Source of the DNA: Cloeon dipterum
Taxonomy: Eukaryota; Arthropoda; Insecta; Ephemeroptera; Baetidae
Assembly (NCBI RefSeq): GCF_949628265.1
Contig: NC_088786.1
Span: 37,965,681 to 38,029,680 of the forward strand
Length of the DNA: 64,000 bases
Direction of reading: 5' to 3'
The notes beneath the pieces are model-generated. The model ran no database searches. It had not been told where the DNA came from and saw only the letters and a list, made by a program, of their open reading frames with translations. Position 1 is the stretch's first letter. Each line of letters starts with the position of its first letter. A program made the position numbers and the translations under genes. This document shows, piece by piece, positions 6,620-22,759 of this stretch.

Positions 6620-7891
6620 CTACAGCTGCAGTTTGACATCTGAGCCGGCTGAGCTGCGCCGGCCAGCCAGCCACCCGTAATATTTTTATCTTTATCGTTT
6701 TTTTTTATTTTCGCGTGCCCCAAGTTAAAAAATTGCGCGCTGCGTTCTTTTTTCACGGAAATTTTGTCTCAAGTACATATTTCATACTCAATAAGTCGAT
6801 TGCCTTAAAAACGGTTTCTTTCGTGTTATTTGCAAATTTATGTAGCTCGCAAGCAGGGTTCGCAAAACCGAATTTTGTAAGAATTAAAACCCCCACTGAA
6901 GTGCAACAAACTGTTTTAAGCGGCTTTGCATGCAATTTTGCGCATTTTTTTCAAAACAAATGCATTTTTATGGAAGATCAAAAATTTTCACGATGGATAA
7001 CCGAAAATATGAATTTTTTACAAAATCAGTATATGATTTCACCAAGAGACCGAACATTTTAACCCTTCAACCATCATAATTTTCATAATTTTAAGCTTTT
7101 TACGGCACGAAATATGCTGACTCTTTCGGGGATTAAATTAGGAAAAATGCGGTAAACCCCAAAACTAGTGGTGTAACCAGCTCTGATTTTTTGCACATTG
7201 CGAAATTAGCGAAGCCTGTTCCGACAGGGAAACCAATTTCTTAATCAATTCACTTCTTTTACCTGAAAATTACATCGCTCCTCAATTCGCTAAAATATCT
7301 AAAATATAAACTTCAATTTAGAAAATGCGACTGAAAAAATTGTTAATTTTCGTCAATTTTGTAGCACAAAACGCAACTTGTAGCTCACCAGGGATCACCA
7401 ATTTTGCAACTGTAAAAATAACCATTGGGGAACCAGGGGGAACATCCATCAGTTTTAGGTTTTACTGAATTTTCCGAGAAGGTCACATTTTGCGTCAAAA
7501 GAGTAAGGAATTTTGGAAAATTATGATGACAGTTGAACTCCTATTGATAAAATTTTTAGATTTTTTGCTGCTTTTCTAAAAATTATTTTTTTTTTTGTTA
7601 TCTAGCATCATGAGCTTGACTAAAAATGCACGAATGTGTTTAAAAAGAATCGGAAAATTGCAGAAAAAACGCAAAAATTGAGTTTTTTGAGTGGCAACGC
7701 AGTGTGTTTTTCCGAAAAAAATGCGGGTTTTTGCGATCTGTGCAGTTTACAGCGTGTGTTACAAATAAGTTATGAGTTACGATTTTTGAGTTGTGCAGTC
7801 TTCAAAAACACAGCCGCCAGCCGAGCCGACGAAATTTTGCCAGCCAGCCGCTGATGTCTGTGTTGACGGCTCGGATGTCTAGCTGCAGTAG
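6620..7891. mobile_element. Non-autonomous element with diverged terminal inverted repeats
   Basis: The left end carries CTGCAGTTTGACATCTGAGC (from 6626). The right end read inwards on the opposite strand carries CTGCAGCTAGACATCCGAGC (from about 7889), 3 mismatches in 20. TA dinucleotides flank both ends. No transposase is encoded. The interior (about 6900-7050) resembles 10,950-11,070, so a related family occurs twice in this window. Confidence 0.45.
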
Positions 7892-9866
7892 AAATAAGGG
7901 AATCAAATCCTTCATTTCCATGTACAGAGTAAACAGTCAAATTTATTCATGTCTGTTAATATTATAATTTATAATTAATTTATCCAAGTTGGGATTTATA
8001 CTTCTTGCTGCATCTACAACTCGACGCTGCAATCCCTTCAAAAATACAATCTTGATTTTTATTTGAAATGCCAGAAAGCAGTTTAATCGGTTTGATTATT
8101 TAATTTAAAAAATTTCCTTCGTTGCACGCGCGCGCGGCAGCCTCTTATTCTTGTGAAACGCACTGCCAGGACCAGGAGCGGCAAATAGACACGCCGCGCA
8201 CTAAAAATTTACTTATAATTTAGAAAAAGAAGCTCGCAATTAAGGGTTGAACCTTAAAAATAAGTGTATCATTTAACGAAATTAAAGGCGAATTTTAAAT
8301 ATTATTTATTGCGCTTGGTAGTTATCGAAATCGGATTCAAAGTTTGAATAATTCATTAAAATTTGAAATATTTGAAGAAAAATATTCATTGCTTCATTCA
8401 TACAAAAATTGTAACAATTTTAGTTAACATGTAATGTTGTCAAGCCACTCTTCGTCCATTTATTTGGTTGACTTTTTCTTAAAATAATTGTAAAAATGGC
8501 GTTTTTTATTATTATCTTGGCTCCTGTTGGATTTAGCTAAATGTTGAAAATAACTTAAAAGGTTTAAAATATAAAATGTTTCAAATTCGAAGTGTCTACG
8601 TTGATTAACGCCGGAGTTACAAATTTTTAGATTTTGAAGAAAAAAATCTGTCTGCTCTTGCATGAGAGCAAAAAGCGGCTTGCATGAGGCACGAAGAGCG
8701 TTGATTTTATTCAAAATATCAATTTTGCCCAATTTCCTCGTTCTCTATCATATTGATTTAGGTGATATTTTCACACAAGATTTATATCAAAATTCTCTAT
8801 CGAAAAACTCCTATCGATTTTATTGAATAAAGTTCAAACTTTTTAGTTATTTTGAATTTAATTTTTTGAAGTGAAGTTATTGGCTGTTTTAGTAGATTCA
8901 ATAAATTTTGCGGACAGCACGAATATGTGGGATCAAAATTCAAGGGTTGTTTTCCCAATCCTTATATTGCTCAACTAAAAATTAATTAAATTAAATACTG
9001 AAAAATCGGGACGAACATGAAAAGCTGTTGGGCAATAAAAAGCTATTGGATTAACACCATTTTAGTCAATTTGAGTTTCAATTCGAATTTGGAAACGACT
9101 AATAATATTTTCATCCACCTCCGAGGTCAAGGTCAGCCGCTGCCCTCTTGACAAATTCTACGCCCTTATTTTTTTAATATTCGGGCATTCCATCGAAACA
9201 GTTCTTCTAGTCATATTTAAATTGAATTTTAATTAACCACCCTGGAAATAGTTGATTTTGAGATAAAATTGAACTCGAATGTAACAAGCAGTGCTGGCTT
9301 GAGAAGGGAGAAAGGAGCTGCACTTGTCCCTTCGTGCGGCTCTTGGGCAGCTCGCCTGCATCGCAGCAGGTGACAATAAAAAAGGCTCTGTTTCGCCGCG
9401 CATCTGGCGCATTGTGATTGCTGGCAAATCGGCCTAAAAGCGGCCACACGCCTCATCGAGGGTTGTTTGAAGGAATAACAATTTTGCCAGGGATGTACCG
9501 ATTGTACCGGCCGGCCAGATGCAACAACACCATTCAATTCAGTTGCTTTCATTGAGTTGCATGAAGCAAGATGTGTGTGTGTCGAAGCCGGCCTCCCGGC
9601 TCCCGCGTTTTGCCGGATCAGTTTTAGCGCTCAAAAATGGTTCCGCAGAAGAGCATACATCGCCAGGCTTATTCTCTTCAAGTTAAGAACTTTTCACCAA
9701 TCGGACTTAAAAATTATTTTGAGCTTCGCCATGAACAGAAAGGAGAAGAAAGAAGAAGGTTTCGTTTTGCCGCTCATCGTCGCACCCGCGACAGGTTGCA
9801 CATAGGAGCCACCGCGGCCCGGCAGCAGACCCAGCTACGCTCTTATCTGAACCCTGACCGGCCGAC
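7892..9866. other. AT-rich intergenic DNA with one GC-richer patch
   Basis: No recognisable gene. A GC-richer patch (about 9280-9560) has overlapping minus-strand frames without motifs. An alternating CG/GC run lies near 8126. Confidence 0.5.
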
Positions 9867-14283: not shown

Positions 14284-16367
14284 TTAGTCGACCTCCTCGA
14301 TGGTAGGACCCTGGCCGCGGCCACCCTGACTGGCCTGCTGTCCGCACGACTGGAAGGGCTGGGGGCCTCCGCCCTGTTGCTGTTGCTGCTGGTACATCTT
14401 GCTCATGATGGGCATGCACTCCTTGTTGAGCTGCTCGTAGCGGTGCTCGAACTCCTCCTTGTCGGCCAGGTTGTTGTTATCGATCCAGCTCAGGGTCTCT
14501 TCCGCCAGCTTGGTCACCTTGTCCTTGTCCTCCTGAGACAGTTTGTCTGCGGCGTCCTGGACGGCCTGTTTGACCTGCAGGGCGTAGCCTTCGAGCTTGG
14601 CCTTGGCCTCGATGCGGGCCTTCTGCACCTCGTCCTCGGCCTTGTACTTCTCGGCGTCGGCGACCATGCGTTCGATCTCCTCCCTGGACAGCCGCCCTTT
14701 GTCGTTCTTGATGGTGATGTTCTTGCTGTTGCCCGAGCTCTCGTCCTTGGCCGAGACGTTGAGGATGCCGTTGGCGTCCAGGTCGAAGGTGACCACAATC
14801 TTCGGCACGCCCCTCGGAGCCGGAGGGATTCCGGTCAGGTCGAAGGTGCCCAGGAGGTTGTTGTCCTTGGTCATGTACCTTTCGCCTTCGAACACCTGGA
14901 TCGTCACGGCGGGCTGGTTGTCCGAGTAGGTGGAGAACGTCTGCTGCTGCTTGCAAGGGATGCGGGTGTTCCTTTCGATGATCTTGGCCATCACCCCTCC
15001 GGCCGTCTCGATGCCCATCGACAGCGGCGCCACGTCCACCAGGAGCACGTCCTGGATCTGGCTGCTCTTGTCGCCGCTCAGGATGGCCGCTTGCACCGCC
15101 GCTCCGTAGGCGACGGCCTCGTCAGGGTTGATGGACAGGTTCAGGGTCTTGCCGTTGAAGAAGTCCTGCAGCAGTTTCTGGACCTTCGGGATCCTGGTCG
15201 AGCCTCCGACCAAGACGACGTCGTGGATTTGGTTTTTGTCCATTTTAGCGTCCTTCAGGGCCTGCTCCACGGGGACCAGGGTCGACCTGAACAGGTCGGA
15301 GCAGAGTTCTTCGAACCTGGCCCTCGAGATCTTGGTGTAGAAGTCGATGCCCTCGAAGAGCGAGTCGATTTCGAGACTGGCCTCAGAGCTGCTGCTCAGG
15401 GTGCGTTTTGCCCTTTCGCAGGCGGTGCGGAGCCTCCTCAGGGCCCTGGGGTTGCTGCTCAGGTCCTTCTTGTGCTTGCGTTTGAACTCCTCGATGAAGT
15501 GGCTGACCATCCGGTTGTCAAAGTCCTCACCGCCCAGGTGAGTGTCTCCCGCAGTTGACTTGACCTCGAACAGGGACCCTTCGTCGATGGTCAGGATGCT
15601 GACGTCAAAGGTACCGCCTCCAAGGTCGAAAATGAGGACGTTCTTCTCGCCTTTAAGGTTCTTATCCAAGCCGTACGCCAGGGCAGCGGCCGTTGGTTCG
15701 TTAATGATCCTCAGGACGTTCAAACCTGCGATGGCGCCGGCGTCCTTTGTCGCCTGGCGCTGAGCGTCGTTGAAGTACGCAGGAACAGTGATGACGGCGT
15801 CCTTAATGGTGGTGCCCAGGTACGCCTCGGCCGTCTCCTTCATCTTGGTCAGGACCATCGAGCTGATTTCCTCAGGGTTGAAGCGTTTCTCCTCGCCCTT
15901 GAACTCCACCTGCAGCTTGGGCTTCGTGTTCTCGCTGACGACCTTGAAGGGCCAGTGCTTCATGTCCGCCTGGATCTTGGGGTCATCGAACTTGCGTCCG
16001 ATCAGGCGTTTCGCGTCGAAGACTGTGTTTTTCGGGTTCATCGCCACCTGGAATGACAAGAATTCGGACTTGTAAGCATCTCGAAACTTCCAGAAATTTA
16101 AAGAATGTTCTGGACAAATCGTTTTTGTCTAGAAAATTCTTATGTAGAGCATGGAAATTAAATAAATGTCGATTTTAAAACAAAATTTCAGCCTACCTGG
16201 TTCTTAGCGGCGTCTCCGATCAACCTTTCGGTGTCCGTGAACGCCACATAGCTGGGGGTGGTGTGGTTGCCCTGGTCATTGGCGATGATTTCCACCTTTC
16301 CGTTCTGCCAGACGCCCACGCAGGAGTAGGTGGTGCCCAGGTCAATACCAATTGCTGGTGCCTTCAT
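14284..16367 (-). CDS. Hsp70: Inducible-type cytosolic heat shock protein 70, two coding exons
   Basis: ATP-dependent chaperone of the cytosol and nucleus that binds exposed hydrophobic segments of client proteins with J-domain and EEVD-binding co-chaperones. Exon 1 is 16367-16197 (57 codons, starting [18 protein letters not shown]); exon 2 is 16047-14284. They splice in phase 0 (KNQ|VAMNP) to give 644 aa, normal for the family. The actin-like ATPase motifs are visible: IDLGTTYS at the N-terminus, [12 protein letters not shown] near residue 196 and [13 protein letters not shown] near 335. The substrate-binding and lid domains follow, ending SCGQQ...GPTIEEVD, the form seen in insect heat-inducible Hsp70. 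A glutamine run precedes the tail. The 149-nt intron inside the coding region is noteworthy because classical Drosophila inducible Hsp70 genes lack introns; it carries an HSE array. No frameshift or lost key residue is seen. Confidence 0.98.
16081..16139. promoter_or_regulatory. Seven-unit heat-shock element array inside the Hsp70 intron
   Basis: Alternating HSF pentamer cores lie in strict 5-bp register: GAA 16083, TTC 16088, GAA 16093, TTA 16098 (2 of 3), GAA 16103, TTC 16108, GAC 16113 (2 of 3). A further GAA/TTC pair sits at 16132 and 16137. Five of seven units are perfect, stronger than the minimal three-unit HSE. It lies about 400 bp downstream of the TATA box, within the 149-nt intron 16048-16196. 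Confidence 0.75.
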
Positions 16368-16501
16368 GTTGCTGCTGTTTTCTGTTCTCTTCAGCGACTG
16401 TAAATAAAGACTTGGATGAGCGCTGTGGCTGTGTAACTCTCTGCGTCTGCTTCTCGTGTGCTTGTCTGTGAGTGACTAATGCCGAACGTGGGCCTGCCGC
16501 G

Positions 16502-16509
16502 CTTATATA
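16502..16509 (-). promoter_or_regulatory. Hsp70 TATA box
   Basis: TATATAAG on the minus strand, about 135 nt upstream of the Hsp70 ATG. Transcription would start about 25-30 nt downstream (near 16475), leaving a 5' leader of roughly 110 nt. Confidence 0.8.
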
Positions 16510-16529
16510 CGGTTTGAATATTACCGCCT

Positions 16530-16554
16530 AGAAAGATCACGAAAGATCTGGAAA
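16530..16554. promoter_or_regulatory. Proximal heat-shock element of Hsp70
   Basis: Five pentamer units in register: perfect GAA at 16531, 16541 and 16551, with inverted units reading ATC (2 of 3 matches to TTC) between them. It lies about 20-45 bp upstream of the TATA box, the usual position of an Hsp70 proximal HSE. Confidence 0.8.
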
Positions 16555-16559
16555 GAAGG

Positions 16560-16610
16560 CCAATCGGAGCGATCCTATTGGCCGAGACCAGCCGAGACCG
16601 ACTGACGTCA
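16560..16610. promoter_or_regulatory. CCAAT boxes and CRE in the Hsp70 promoter
   Basis: CCAAT occurs in both orientations (CCAATCGG near 16560 and ATTGGCC near 16577). A perfect palindromic CRE/ATF site TGACGTCA is at 16603-16610. These are common basal elements; function is inferred from motif and position. Confidence 0.55.
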
Positions 16611-16647
16611 CGAAGGAGGCGGCGCTTGTTTACGGATTTTGCGGCAA

Positions 16648-16662
16648 AGAAATTTCCAGAAT
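16648..16662. promoter_or_regulatory. Perfect HSE interrupted at its edge by the transposon
   Basis: GAA 16649, TTC 16654, GAA 16659 in perfect 5-bp register. The transposon's target duplication (16654-16661) is the TTCCAGAA core of this element, and the transposon begins at the next base. Confidence 0.8.
16654..16661. repeat. Left 8-bp target-site duplication of the hAT element
   Basis: TTCCAGAA, identical to 22710-22717. Eight bp is the diagnostic duplication length of hAT elements, and T at position 2 with A at position 7 fits the nTnnnnAn preference of Ac-type hATs. Confidence 0.88.
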
Positions 16663-16719
16663 AGACATGGTCAAAATTTTTAAGGCATCGCGATATTTTC
16701 GATGTCGATGTTTTCAAAA

Positions 16720-16782
16720 AATATCGATAAATATCGATATTTATCGTGCAAAAAAAAATATCGCCGGAAAATATCGTCGATA
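16720..16782. repeat. Left subterminal TATCGATA repeats
   Basis: Two perfect TATCGATA words, 10 bp apart (16722-16729 and 16732-16739), followed by further TATCG/CGATA half words to about 16782. The octamer is the DRE sequence known to bind the BED-finger, hAT-related factor DREF in Drosophila. Likely binding sites for an element-encoded protein; that role is inferred. Confidence 0.65.
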
Positions 16783-17017
16783 TTTTTTAAAAAAGGCGCT
16801 TCCGTCCAAAATTGTAACCAAGGCTACAAACTAACGAAAATCAGCCGCAAAGTTACGCCCCCACCCGCAACTAAAACTAACAAACTAAGCAATCATGCTT
16901 GCGTTCTCAATTCTTCCTATATACAACCAAGTCAACTAAGAACAACTTATTTAACTAAATAAGTTTCATCTCTCTCCAAGAATAACAAACGAAATTCACG
17001 ATTCACGTATTCACAAA

Positions 17018-19519
17018 ATGTATACACAGAAAGGAAAATTGACCCCTGTGGAGAGAGAAATTTCTGCGAACTTAACAAGAGAGCAAGTGAAACTTTGCTT
17101 TGAAAAAGTCGACAGTCTTCACAAAAAGTGCATATTTTGCGGTAAAACCTACAAAACAAACGGGAATACCACGAACGAGAAGACTCACTTGTTGTCGAAG
17201 CACAAAGAGGTCCTTCTCTCACACGTCCGCAAGGTCAAGAAACAAAATGTAAGTTGATTTAAAAGAGTTTTGAAACCTAATAATTCTCCAAACAAAACAA
17301 ATTTAAAAAGCTTAAATAAATTCGTCTAAAAAAGCTTCTGAAACATATAAATGTGTTTAATTTATCTTTTAATGACTGCTGGATGGTTTGAATCGTTAAA
17401 AATATCACGAGTAGAGTAATAATTGAATTATATTTACATTAAAAAATGCATCCTAGGAACTCAAAAAGATATAATTAGAAAATTTATTAGTAATTACTAA
17501 AAGTACCGAATTTTTTTGTACTTCCAGTCCAATGATCTACCATCTACCAGCAGTGCCTCGCAAGGAGAAAGCCAACAACAAGAATTATTGATTAGTAACG
17601 AAGATGCATGTGCAAAAGCAGGTGAAGCTCAACCAACAAAGAAAAAGAGAACGATGGATGAATTTGTACCTAGTACAAATATGAAGGGACCATCAACTTG
17701 TATCAAAAAGCAAATTTCTTTAGAGGAAGCCGTCAAAAACGCCAGAAAAAATTGTACGTAAAATATGCTTCTTTTTTACAATTTAGGCGTCATCCGTAAA
17801 TATTTTTCAGTTTCAGGCCAACAATCATCTCAGGTTTTGAGAAACGGATTGATCCGTTTTCTTTGCAAACTAGGCGTGCCCTTGTGTTTGGTTACAAAGG
17901 AGGATTTGGAAGCGCTTTCTCATCCAGCATATTTAGGAATCGAACCATTTGATAATGTAAGCATGAATATTTTTCGTAATTTTACGGGTATAAAACAAGT
18001 TAAATGTTATAGCCTGCCAGCAATGAACTGAATGAAATCGCCACCACCTTGAAATGTGAAATTTCGAGTAGAGTGATTGAGGCAGGTACTTGGGCAGCTG
18101 ATTTCCAAGTATGGCATCTCAACAGAGACAAAGTAGTCGCTGCTCTAGTTGTGCATTACTATGGTTTGTTTACTTTTTAAATTATTAAAATTTCAGAAAA
18201 TGTAATATTGACTCTTTTTAGATTACTCAAAGGATGGAATGCAGTCAGCAGTTCTGTGGGCCATGGTTGAGTCGACTCAGACAATTACCAACAGCCCTGA
18301 AATCATGAGCATGAAGTTGAAACACGACATCGAAGACATGGGGATCTCATGGAAAAATTTACGTTGCGTGTTAAATCAGTCAGATCTTTCCACCAAAGTC
18401 ATGAAGCCCCTACTTCCAACTGGTGCTCGAATGTATGACTGTGCTTTGTCACTGACTGACAGGATTATCTCACATTCGATGTCCTTGGAGACTGTCCAAC
18501 AGCTTAAATCTAAGCTCAAGCGTTTGCATGAAGTCGCCAGAAAGCACGAATCATCGTTCATTTTAGTGGCGAAGAAAGCAAACTCATTTGAAGAGGCTAG
18601 AAATTTTTTGGTAGCCAGAAGCTCTCAAGATATCCTTGAGCATTTTGTGCATTGCTCAAAATTGATGAATGATTTTCTCACTTTGCCAGAAATCTCAAGA
18701 GAAAATTTAAGTCTCAACCACCAAGATATTGCTTGTTCCAGGGAAATTGAATCTCTGCTGAGTGTGATGAAGTCAGCAACAAGAAAGATTGACTCAAACA
18801 CACAATTCCTCGCCTCACAAACCGCACCATACATTTTCATGACTCTGGAGAAGTTAAAAAGAACCATAATTTTAACTGGTTCAGCAATGACAATGAAGAG
18901 AGACTTAATTCAACAGCTCGAAGCATGGAAATCTACTAGAGGTGATGAGGAGCCCTTCGTCAGCTGCCAAATATTTGATCCGCGTTACAAAACAATGTGC
19001 ATTGGTAGCCCAGAGAACCCATTCATCTTGATGAATGCGACCAACGCTTTAAAAGGAAAATTGAAGTCTTTTGTGTCTGACAAAATTAATTCTGACAAAA
19101 AAAGACAACATGCTCTAGTCAGCAATGCTGCACAACCTGAAGGGAGAGAAGAGTTAATAAGCAGTGAAGAAGATGATCCTACTCCAGAAGACGTTTTTGA
19201 CTTTCGAGCCTACACAAATACATTCCAGACTCAAACTAGAGCATCTGCTGTGAATCCTGAGGACAAGGAAATAAACTTGTTCTTGAACTACGTCAAGGAT
19301 CCTACGTTGGAAAGCGAAGACCTTGACGTGTTCAAATTTTGGAAGAAGAGGGCTGGAGTTGAAAAATATTTGAGCATATTTGGTGTTAGTTGTCTTGCGG
19401 TACCAGGAAAGCGTGTACTCAAAATTTCAAAATGTTTACATTCAAGAATGATTGAAGAAAAAGAAATTGAAAGTGTGTTGATTTGTGCTTCTGCACCAAA
19501 TAACTTGTGGAATTATTAA
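17018..19519 (+). CDS. BED-finger, hAT-fold protein with degenerate catalytic motifs (five exons)
   Basis: Exons 17018-17248, 17528-17753, 17817-17956, 18013-18163 and 18222-19519 splice in frame to 681 aa. The N-terminus carries a BED-type zinc finger (CIFCGKTY ... HLLSKH, residues about 38-63). A basic patch (KKKRTMDEF) suggests a nuclear signal. The rest follows the hAT fold: the slot that is VVALVVHYYDYS aligns with the family's TAHYID segment, CQIFDPRYK aligns with the LDPRYK segment, and FKFWKKR opens a C-terminal hATC-like region. The TDGGANM motif of the partner transposase aligns here with LNQSDLS, the C-x2-H motif is absent, RWNS is lost, and the hATC signature (PASSTASER) is missing. 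It is therefore probably catalytically dead. Likely an accessory DNA-binding protein or repressor of the element; a DREF-like role is an alternative. Confidence 0.85.
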
Positions 19520-20242
19520 AAAATAAAAAACTTTAATATTAATCTTGCGTGATTTCATTTATGTCTATCATTTAAATTGAGATTATTTAAATTGTTTCAA
19601 AATAAAATTTTGGTTGGTCCTTTACCAAATTTGAACGCGGTGTATTTTATATTCGAAATTGAAATTCCTAAAATAATTATTATATTTGATTTTGAAATTA
19701 AAGTTAAATTGGTTAATGCATTATGTAAAATATAACTGGGTTTGATTTTACTTTTTGTCAAATTTTGATTGGAATTGATTTCAATATTTTGTCAAATGAA
19801 AATTGAAGTTACTAGATTTAATATTAAAAACACCAGATACATTTTTATTTCTACCACTTACATCCTAAAAATACATACTATGTAGACCTAAATACAAGCT
19901 TAATAATTGTTACGAGTAATCAATTTTTAATTCCAATCAAGGAGCAATTCCAGGCGAATATGGAGATCGATTTGACAGGATTTTTGCATTCAAATATTAA
20001 GCTGACAATTAATTTATTTTCTTTGATTGTGCTTGTTAATAAGTGGTTTTTTTATTTTTTGATATGAAGAAAAAATAGGGAAAGCACCTGAGCTCAAGCC
20101 AAGCCTTTGAGTTTCACCATCTGTTAAGTAATTTATATCAGTTTAATTAGGTGTCACCTTAAAATTACTCACAAAATTTCAATTATAATCGTCCTCCAAA
20201 GTTAGCCTGGATATATTTTAGAATTTACAATCAGTCCACATT
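19520..20242. other. AT-rich spacer between the convergent transposon genes
   Basis: No open frame of note. AATAAA-type poly(A) signals occur on both strands near each stop (plus strand about 19524 and 19602; minus strand about 20051), consistent with convergent 3' ends. Confidence 0.6.
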
Positions 20243-22167
20243 TTACGGGCTGATAATTTTCCAATGTTTTTTGTCAAGACATTTTAAAAATACGAGAATG
20301 TCAACATTTTTCTTCGTCAAACGCGCTCTTTTTTTTACTGCAATTAGATTTAAAGCAGAGACAGCTCGCTCTGATGCTGTTGATGAGGCTGGAATCAATA
20401 GAGCCCTCAAAGCTATTTTGCTTAGAAATGGAGAAAAGCCTTCGATCCTGTTTTGCCAATATTGAATTGGATTTGCATCAAAATCTTCAGTAGGACAGTT
20501 CAGATAGTGTTTTAGCTCTCTATCATAAGAAGTACTCCATGCTTCAATTTTCTCCTTAATCTGCTGCACCAAATAGGGCTGGAAAATACTCCCATCCTAT
20601 AAAATCATAAATTATATTTGATAATATGTTTAATTATTCTAATTGTGGTACCATCAGAGAAGCATCGAGTGAATCATCCGATTTTGATCTTTCTTCCTTC
20701 AACAATGAGTTCACGATTTCAACAGCTTTAGCGTTTGCTGAAACATCTAAATGGTCAGACCTATATCGGGGATCAAGAAGAGTAGCTTTGATATGGATTC
20801 TGCTCAAATGCAATTCATTTAACAGAGCCTGGAGTTGTTTAATCAAACTATCTTTCATGGCTTTTCCTTCTTGAGTTTTAGCAGCAAAATTACCCATTTT
20901 GTACATGGCGTACTTAAGGCCTGGAATAACCAGGTTGACTGAAATGAATTAACAAAATTTAATAAGATATCAAATTAATCTTAATTTTACAAATTTACCA
21001 GTCGGGTATTTTTCACCGGAATACATCGAGGTCAACTCATACATCACAGCTGTGATGCCAATGTAGTCTTGCAAATGAGTTACTTCATCCTCGTTTAAGT
21101 TTTCGTGATCGGCGTCATCCTCAAGTGCTTTGTTTACATAGCATTCCATGTCAAGGTAAGATTTTGCCGAAAGGTACTCGCTATTCCAGCGAGGTTTGAT
21201 AGCCCTTTTTAGGTAAGTTATGTTGCTGGGGAGGACTCCACATTCCTCTTGAGAATTGCGAAGTTTGTCCATAGCCAACGTGCTGTGCTTGAAGTAGGTC
21301 ACTAACTTGTGCAGTTTTTCAAAAGTTGACGAAAGCTCTTTTGAATCTTTTAGAGATCTCTTAACAATGTTGTGGATTGTATGATTTATGCAGACGATGT
21401 GTTGATCTTTGCCCACCAGCATCCTCATAGCTTTAACCATGTTGGCACCTCCATCAGTCACGGCACCAACTATTTGTTTTGTTTTCAGGCCAAAGTCTTC
21501 AATTATGAGGCACAACTGGCTGTAAATCTCATCAGCTGTGTGTCTGCAGTTCAATTGCCGTGCTGCGAGGGTGACAGAGTCAATCGTTGATTCAGCTTTT
21601 TTTAAATAAAGAATATTAGTCACGATTTCACTTATTTAATGGCGTGATACACTTTATTACCAATATAATGTGCTGTCATCACAAGGTAGCCCATTGTTGT
21701 GGTGGTTACTGTGGCTATATCTGCAGTTACGACCACTTCCTTATTCCTTAAAACTGTTCCTACTAATATCCGAGCCTTCAAGCCAAGATTGAGGATCATT
21801 CTAGTAAGCTATAAACATTGATTATTTTAAAATCAATAATTAAAAAATAAAAACAAACCGATTTAGAACTTGGAGGTAGGTACGCTGGGTCAATGACTTC
21901 TCGTAAGAGGTTAACAAATCCCCATTTATTCACTTCGTGAAGCGAGTGACCCTCCGATGCTATGAAAACCGCAAGCTTTTCCGCAACTCTTCTGTGTTTT
22001 AAGCTTCCTATATGTATGGGAGGATAAATAATAAAATCAGATTTTAACCAGTAATTCGTACCAATAGAGCCTCTAGTTTTGTAGTACTTTCCTCTGATTC
22101 TTTTTACAGGTACACCAAGCCGCCGTTTATTTTTGCGGGTTTTCTTTTGGACAGAAACCCTGGACAT
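20243..22167 (-). CDS. hAT transposase, five exons, no BED zinc finger
   Basis: Exons 22167-21859, 21808-21661, 21595-20999, 20938-20652 and 20596-20243 splice in frame to 564 aa. All introns are short (46-65 nt) with GT-AG ends. The basic N-terminus (KKTRKNKRRLGVPVKRIRG) replaces the usual BED finger. Then come, in family order: VAEKLAVFIASEGHSLHEV (early hAT segment); VVVTADIATV ... GYLVMTAHYI, with the first catalytic Asp; AVTDGGANMVKAM, with the second; a C-x2-H motif (CINH); PRWNS; LLDPRYR; and the C-terminal hATC dimerisation signature LIPASSTASERAVSALN ... RLTKKNVDILVFLK. No stop or frameshift is seen, so it looks active. It cuts and pastes the element at its ends. How it recognises them without a BED finger is open; the partner protein may do so. 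Confidence 0.93.
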
Positions 22168-22639
22168 CTTACTCCGTATATTAAAACACGTTATGATAAG
22201 TGAGAACCGCGTGGAGTTATCTTATTCCGCTTGAAATGTGTGCTTCGTGTTCAGTCATTTAGTTTAGTGTTTGTTTACTTTTATGTGTTTTGTTATTGTT
22301 ATATGTCAAAACAGTTTTGCCACCTAAACCCTAGTAGGTGTTGGTTATTGATCATAGAGGAAATACAATAGCATGGTTGACGGCGATTGGTAATTCTGAC
22401 TTTAGGGGTGGGCGGATCCGCGGATGGGCGATGGGCTGTTCGGCTGTTGGTAGTTCGTATCGTATTTTGGTTGTACGGGAGTATGTTCGTTCTGGTTTTT
22501 AAATTATAATTTTATTTCTTATGGCCAGCAGCCTAGATCAACAAAAAACGCGGCACAAGCAATTGACATAGAATGCTAACACGGTTTAAAAAAAATCGCA
22601 CAAAAATCGCGAAAAATCATCGATAATTATCGTTTTTGT

Positions 22640-22695
22640 AAAAAAAATCGATAATATCGTGCCGAAAAAATATCGATTTTAAATATCGATATTTT
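22640..22695. repeat. Right subterminal TATCGAT repeats
   Basis: TATCGATA at 22684-22691, TATCGATT at 22671-22678 and ATCGATAATATCG around 22648, in inverted orientation to the left cluster. They mirror the left subterminal array and share the neighbouring word CACGATA/TATCGTG. Confidence 0.65.
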
Positions 22696-22709
22696 TTTGG
22701 CCATGACTA

Positions 22710-22717
22710 TTCCAGAA
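22710..22717. repeat. Right 8-bp target-site duplication of the hAT element
   Basis: TTCCAGAA, identical to 16654-16661, directly after the right end (GGCCATGACTA). Confidence 0.88.
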
Positions 22718-22735
22718 TGACATTTATCCCGTTAT

Positions 22736-22759
22736 ATTCACGAATGTTCCAGAACGTAC
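22736..22759. promoter_or_regulatory. Distal HSE displaced from Hsp70 by the transposon
   Basis: TTC 22737, GAA 22742, TTC 22747, GAA 22752 in perfect 5-bp register, then TAC (2 of 3). Before insertion this lay about 75 bp from the HSE at 16648-16662 and belonged to the Hsp70 upstream region; it is now about 6 kb away. Confidence 0.75.

Follow-up and report, generated by a model that had tools for sequence, protein, structure and literature searches.

Convergent BED-finger and BED-less transposase genes in a putative two-gene lineage of hAT transposons from Cloeon dipterum

Transposons of the hAT superfamily, such as Hermes, Ac, hobo and Tol2/Tgf2, feature 8-bp target site duplications (TSDs), short terminal inverted repeats (TIRs) and subterminal arrays, and encode an RNase-H-like core with D/D/E, CxxH and RW motifs and a hATC domain. 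Known members carry a BED finger and this core in one protein, and a hAT transposase is regarded as one protein that both finds and cuts its ends. Here we describe an element of the Cloeon dipterum genome that shares these end features, core motifs and hATC domain and lies at positions 16662-22709 of a 64,000-nt stretch of DNA (the window, to which coordinates refer; C1-C5 denote contigs of the genome, with positions in Mb, and L numbers denote genome loci). This is a single element with a convergent gene pair between one TIR pair and, judged by its 8-bp TSD, short TIRs, subterminal repeats and transposase motifs with a hATC domain, it is a hAT transposon. In Tgf2 the finger lies within the transposase (PMC4890040), whereas here a second, convergent gene encodes it, fused to a decayed hAT body. 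The canonical layout, with finger and catalytic core together in one protein, was found neither in the window element nor in three relatives, and the window element appears to be an intact-looking member of a two-gene hAT lineage.

The original prediction, made from the letters of this DNA, had placed both genes within one set of inverted ends flanked by an 8-bp duplication, and this was borne out (Table 1). None of 200 dinucleotide shuffles of the flanks gave a TIR and exact 8-bp TSD as good as those observed, where an AG was demanded at TIR positions 2-3. Both ends carry arrays of CGATA/TATCGATA motifs, and TATCGATA is the DREF site. The left array features nine CGATA motifs in 129 bp (dinucleotide-shuffle mean 1.35) and the right array seven in 120 bp (shuffle mean 0.97), counts that were reached in 0 of 1000 shuffles in each case; elsewhere, there are two in the 5.8-kb element interior and at most three per 129-bp interval tested outside the element. 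The longest stop-free run is 435 codons, compared with a maximum of 197 among 200 shuffles.

The minus-strand gene encodes a protein of 546 aa that is identical over 546 residues to isoform X2 of NCBI LOC135948493, an uncharacterized Cloeon dipterum protein. Pfam analysis indicated a Dimer_Tnp_hAT domain (45.8 bits), and the protein matches Hermes structures with an E of about 1e-23. No zf-BED match was obtained at E ≤ 1, in agreement with the claim that this gene carries the hAT catalytic motifs and hATC domain and no BED finger. A search of the element's minus strand for a C2H2/BED pattern in one reading frame found none (it would not detect a finger interrupted by an intron), and a missed BED exon upstream of the catalytic gene inside the element was rejected on this single-frame search.

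The plus-strand gene encodes 683 aa with no internal stop and has the five exons that had been proposed for both genes, while the catalytic gene has six. In the Pfam search at E ≤ 1, zf-BED was its sole match (23.2 bits, cut-off 20.6), corresponding to the finger CIFCGKTYKTNGNTTNEKTHLLSKH. Residues 207-655 align to a profile of seven hAT proteins with an hhalign probability of 96.6 (E 5e-10), and hmmsearch with a profile of ten hAT proteins, which include the four catalytic proteins described here, gave an E of 1.9e-11 at a nominal database size of 1000, whereas none of 200 shuffled BED-partner sequences scored better than 1.6. When aligned to ten hATs, the protein features GKR in place of SER, CALS in place of CxxH, no RWN, and Gln in the column of the first Asp with an Asp two residues earlier. 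The description of this gene as a BED finger on a hAT body without catalytic motifs was thus upheld, although the second Asp may be retained (NQSD vs TD).

Table 1. Coordinates of the window element, its genes and three related elements
Feature	Position	Strand	Remarks
Left TSD TTCCAGAA	16654..16661		Exact copy at 22710-22717
Left TIR TAGACATGGTCAAAA	16662..16676	+	
Left subterminal array, CGATA motifs	16691..16782		9 motifs on both strands within 16662-16790
BED-partner exon 1	17018..17248	+	Start codon, BED finger
BED-partner exon 2	17528..17753	+	
BED-partner exon 3	17811..17956	+	First base at 17811 or, 6 nt further on, at 17817; either keeps the frame
BED-partner exon 4	18013..18163	+	Shared 151-nt phase-0/1 exon
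BED-partner exon 5	18222..19519	+	Degenerate hAT core, C-terminal region, stop codon
Spacer between convergent 3' ends	19520..20242		Truncated C2 copy starts at ~19879
Catalytic exon 6	20243..20596	-	hATC domain, third catalytic residue E505, stop
Catalytic exon 5	20652..20938	-	LDPR motif
Catalytic exon 4	20999..21595	-	Second Asp D182, C203/H206, RWN 270-272
Catalytic exon 3	21661..21808	-	First Asp D115; 148 nt, resembles partner's 151-nt exon
Catalytic exon 2	21859..22007	-	
Catalytic exon 1	22062..22167	-	Short basic N-terminus instead of BED finger; identical to NCBI model
Right subterminal array, CGATA motifs	22621..22691		7 motifs within 22590-22709
Right TIR TAGTCATGGCCAAAA (reverse strand)	22695..22709	-	
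Right TSD TTCCAGAA	22710..22717		Exact copy of 16654-16661
C2:36.77 element	L079+L037 1186-9106		TSD CAGCCATG
C1:24.38 element	L038+L078 4104-13316		TSD GTTGTTCC
C2:3.05 element	L039+L077 3394-10626		TSD TCGGTTTC

A genome search with the window catalytic protein at E ≤ 1e-3, by which families were chosen through the catalytic gene and not the BED gene, defined four families: that of the window and those at C2:36.77 Mb, C1:24.38 Mb and C2:3.05 Mb, the last with a second copy at C2:36.27-36.29 Mb. The catalytic proteins of the three relatives are 23-28% identical to that of the window. In all four families examined, a BED-finger gene lies tail to tail with the catalytic gene inside one TIR pair and an exact 8-bp TSD; the fingers of the relatives are CLKCKKEYRTGGGTSNLRKHFFTKH (C2:36.77), CLVCNVVVLGENTSNLWSHLKNKH (C1:24.38) and CLKCPGAKKVRGSNTSNLWHHLEKHH (C2:3.05). 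The TIRs match at 12 of 14 positions in the window and C2:36.77 elements and at 11 of 14 in the C2:3.05 and C1:24.38 elements, and in the shuffle control of each family 0 of 200 reached the observed TIR and TSD, with the best shuffle at 9 or 10 positions. Alternative ends of the C1:24.38 element (12/14, duplication TTGATATA) were set aside, as these lie inside the terminal array and have no TAG start, and the outer TAG pair was preferred. Between the convergent genes of this element (L038 ~7054-9210) there is also a tandem array of ~172-bp units, part of it inverted.

The catalytic gene models of C1:24.38 (549 aa) and C2:3.05 (548 aa) have six exons each and no stops, while that of C2:36.77 is at least 497 aa, with its start codon not placed. 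Pfam analysis at E ≤ 1 detected Dimer_Tnp_hAT in all three catalytic relatives and BED in none, whereas the three relative partners all feature BED above the cut-off and no Dimer_Tnp_hAT. Residues D115, D182, C203, H206, R270-W271-N272 and S504-E505-R506 are invariant across the four catalytic proteins. By comparison, the four partner models have no RWN, no CxxH and no Glu in the E505 column; their first-Asp column reads Gln, Gly, Lys (preceded by Glu at a distance of two residues) and Asp, and the C2:36.77 partner may keep the first catalytic Asp. Terminal arrays are present in all four families, with words that differ between families. The words of the three relatives are their most frequent words, selected after the fact: ATATCA in C1:24.38 and C2:3.05, with 24 and 28 per 500 terminal bases vs ~0.4 expected from the interior, and AGTACCGA (seven, none inside) and AAAGTAAT (eight) in C2:36.77.

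Across the genome, 13 places encode a hATC domain, and at five of these (window, C2:3.05, C2:36.29, C2:36.77 and C1:24.38) a convergent BED match lies within ~5 kb. C2:36.07 is the truncated copy, and no BED match was listed within 5 kb at C5:29.28, C1:38.82, C4:33.36, C2:13.85, C1:36.83 and C2:36.67; this is weak evidence, since 150 of 596 BED candidates were scored. At C3:19.16 a BED lies upstream on the same strand, in what looks like a DREF-like host gene (C3:19158491-19161960; L081+L002) with a BED finger and a degenerate hAT body on one strand. A zf-BED match at C5:29.27 Mb was rejected as a hAT partner because it belongs to a C2H2 gene, and dense BED-like zinc-finger matches in long open frames at C4:28.77-30.8 Mb are possibly a C2H2 gene cluster. 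A fragment of 48 aa at C2:37.05 Mb is 48% identical to the C1:24.38 catalytic protein.

The search for further copies, which the original prediction had proposed, thus yielded three related two-gene families, and the only same-family copy of the catalytic gene is truncated. This copy, at C2:36.06-36.08 Mb, has 95-98% DNA identity to the window gene, starts at the equivalent of window position 19879 and retains the right TIR. It contains large inserts and length changes in three coding exons, two of which have an altered frame; no left TIR was seen, and the right-flank 8-mer does not occur in the left-side locus. It was therefore rejected as a one-gene member of the family, given its missing left end, exon length changes and LTR-like and other inserts and, being truncated, it speaks neither for nor against an ancestral two-gene state.

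The ends of the window family also occur apart from both genes. Its left 210-212 bp recur at two other places with 86-87% identity, and a left end lies at C2:3.97 Mb. At C4:31.5535-31.5569 Mb (L042/L047), a 3.4-kb element features the left 212 bp and right 130 bp of the family with an exact 8-bp TSD (CTCGCGAC); no transposase gene was recognised by eye in the parts read, which exclude a 40-bp gap between the two loci. The last 67-70 bp at the right end recur at tens of places with 84-91% identity, where the genome search listed 79 matches, several per place, and 26 loci (L048-L073) were tested. At 18 of these 26 loci an exact 8-bp duplication is accompanied by a left end starting TAGACAT, and 16 of the 18 short elements are 173-184 bp in length, with the other two at 297 and 400 bp. 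A MITE family carries the window element's right TIR, with TAGACATCACCAAATG or similar as its left end.

The window element lies upstream of an hsp70-like minus-strand gene, ~295 bp from its start codon (flanks 16362-16661 and 22710-22754). The heat-shock-element motifs GAAATTTCCAGAA and TTCACGAATGTTCCAGAA flank the insertion site, and the target TTCCAGAA itself is of this type.

Evidence of selection on the partner comes from the two copies of the C2:3.05 family, which share 99.0% identity across 4.6 kb of aligned sequence. All 634 codons of the BED gene that could be paired are open in both, and they differ by 11 synonymous changes per 401 sites and nine non-synonymous changes per 1501 sites (dN/dS 0.215, Fisher p 0.0008), in a comparison that follows open frames, such that some codons may exceed the true exon ends. 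In the second copy, the catalytic gene extends over ~20 kb, and the ends of this copy were not found within the 5 kb examined. For the window catalytic gene, comparison with its dead copy gave a dS of 0.024 and a dN of 0.009 (p 0.049). Given the dN/dS of 0.215 and the open frames, the partner seems to be retained under purifying selection, as does the transposase.

Several features suggest a common origin of the two genes in a single hAT gene. The stretch around the first Asp can be read as a single exon of 148-154 nt, with start phase 0 and end phase 1, in all eight genes, and this common exon points to one ancestral hAT gene that contained it. Seven of the eight come from initial models, while the acceptor of the C2:36.77 partner was picked afterwards among five listed, four of them in phase; in the DREF-like gene this stretch seemingly lies, by eye, in a longer open frame. 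In addition, hmmsearch with the profile of ten hAT proteins detected three of the four partners (E 1.9e-11, 3.4e-7 and 1.5e-6), while the fourth, bed_C2_3, is linked to hATs via its homologue bed_C1_24 alone (E 8e-58). The C1:24.38 and C2:3.05 partners share 27% identity along most of the protein, compared with 44% for their catalytic proteins, and the partner therefore seems to change faster. A tree of ten catalytic proteins, six of them outgroup rows, groups those of the four families (93/95), and with partners added all eight group (71/97). In the latter analysis, a clade of the four partners was not recovered but also not rejected (p-AU 0.29), and the same holds for a clade of the four catalytic proteins (p-AU 0.27). 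Of the ancient in-element duplication originally proposed, descent from one gene is thus backed by the shared exon and the hAT-core homology, while its place inside the element is not settled by the tree.

We propose, with a probability of roughly 0.6, a lineage of two-gene hATs in which a BED-less transposase works with a BED partner. One ancestral BED-hAT transposase gene would have been duplicated, with one copy retaining the finger and losing catalysis and the other retaining catalysis and losing the finger. The BED partner would then bind the two terminal arrays (of CGATA/TATCGATA motifs in the case of the window), its hAT-like body would recruit or orient the catalytic subunit, and the latter would cut and integrate, giving 8-bp target duplications. 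Binding of the arrays by the partner is suggested by the terminal arrays themselves together with two described cases: CGATA clusters are bound by the BED-finger protein BEAF-32B (PMC5021357), and the hAT transposase of Tgf2, once deprived of its finger, no longer bound the ends in vitro and gave imprecise excision (PMC4890040). A broader version, whose chances we judge to be somewhat below even, is that this is an old hAT lineage that needs two subunits, a BED pseudo-transposase that reads family-specific arrays and a BED-less catalytic subunit. As the array word of the window element is known from BEAF and DREF, such insect regulatory codes could be relics of end-recognition partners.

A number of observations weigh against this proposal. 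The BED-partner models of the relatives are rough, two of them containing a junction without a detectable intron, and some partners may still have one catalytic Asp, or both. Similarity between partners of the more distant families lies mainly in the finger, and hhalign of single partners against a profile of the four catalytic proteins was weak (E 1.5e-5, 0.41, 0.14 and 0.02); bed_C2_3 matched no profile, and bed_C2_36 was marginal at 7e-4. The window BED gene is single-copy, with no further genomic copies found, and its protein had zero matches in a protein collection that includes annotated Cloeon proteins, although the catalytic gene is annotated; this search used exact-word seeding, which is able to reveal fairly close relatives only. 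Single-sequence structure prediction of partner exon 5 (pLDDT 35) was discarded as useless. Finally, the tree gave the BED genes no firm position and, with this and the weak match between partners and catalytic proteins, duplication inside the element would be the simplest reading of how the pair arose.

The main rival to an end-recognition partner is a regulatory one, a dead transposase that sits on the arrays, which may also contain promoters, and limits transposition or controls transcription. End finding would then be left to the catalytic protein, through its core and basic N-terminus. We consider this rather unlikely. In its favour, catalytic residues are lost in the partners, the window catalytic protein does have a short basic N-terminus and finger-less Tgf2 still gave 21-25% gene transfer vs 56% for the full protein (PMC4890040). 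End finding by the catalytic protein alone would, however, make it a coincidence that the finger is missing from four of four catalytic proteins and present in four of four partners. Repressor forms of known elements usually keep the DNA-binding domain of the transposase.

The BED gene could instead be a captured passenger, derived from a host BED gene or a different hAT, with no role in transposition. The body of the window BED protein resembles its own catalytic partner no more closely than it does outside hATs, and the absence of a tree position for the BED genes would also fit, but the gene is found in all four families examined, is under purifying selection in one of them and resembles the catalytic gene in exon phase and length, which makes capture a distinctly improbable origin. 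Two nested or adjacent independent insertions, tail to tail by chance, would accord with the catalytic gene standing alone at C2:36.06-36.08 Mb, were that truncated copy informative on ancestral content. Since two genes within one TIR and TSD recur in four families, coincidence is very unlikely, and this explanation, under which the original prediction would have failed, was rejected.

The proposed arrangement of an array-binding BED partner and a BED-less transposase can be set against several known systems. In DREF, too, a BED finger is joined to a decayed hAT body. DREF/ZBED1 and DAYSLEEPER are domesticated host genes that do not lie between transposon ends, whereas here a decayed BED-hAT protein is borne by the transposon itself. 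Maize MuDR (Mutator) likewise has two convergent genes, mudrA (the transposase) and mudrB, whose function is given as unknown (PMC3440606), and belongs to another transposase superfamily. A further source describes a PIF/Harbinger system (Nuwa) with a transposase and a separate DNA-binding protein, as well as rust-fungus hAT7 elements with an additional TET/JBP gene (PMC12730594). Harbinger/Nuwa belongs to another superfamily and its partner is a Myb/SANT protein, unlike the decayed transposase of the window element, and the extra gene of hAT7 encodes a TET/JBP dioxygenase in elements with 7-bp TSDs, in contrast to a BED partner and an 8-bp TSD. The Cloeon genome paper, in the part available, reports a transposable-element share of 5%, describes 37 RNA-seq sets and makes no mention of two-gene hATs (PMC7250882). 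No hAT with a separate BED partner was found in searches of the open-access literature, where Harbinger/Nuwa, rust hAT7 and MuDR came closest. Against that literature, a two-gene hAT with its finger on a separate decayed-transposase partner appears to be new, as originally suspected. If true, a lineage that splits these tasks between two transposase descendants would be a natural separation-of-function system, in which recognition could be studied apart from catalysis and the co-change of end arrays and fingers could be traced between families. How decayed BED-hAT proteins such as DREF/ZBED turn from partners of a transposon into regulators of the host would also become approachable. MuDR and Harbinger are two-gene systems as well, but here the ancestry of the second gene is visible.

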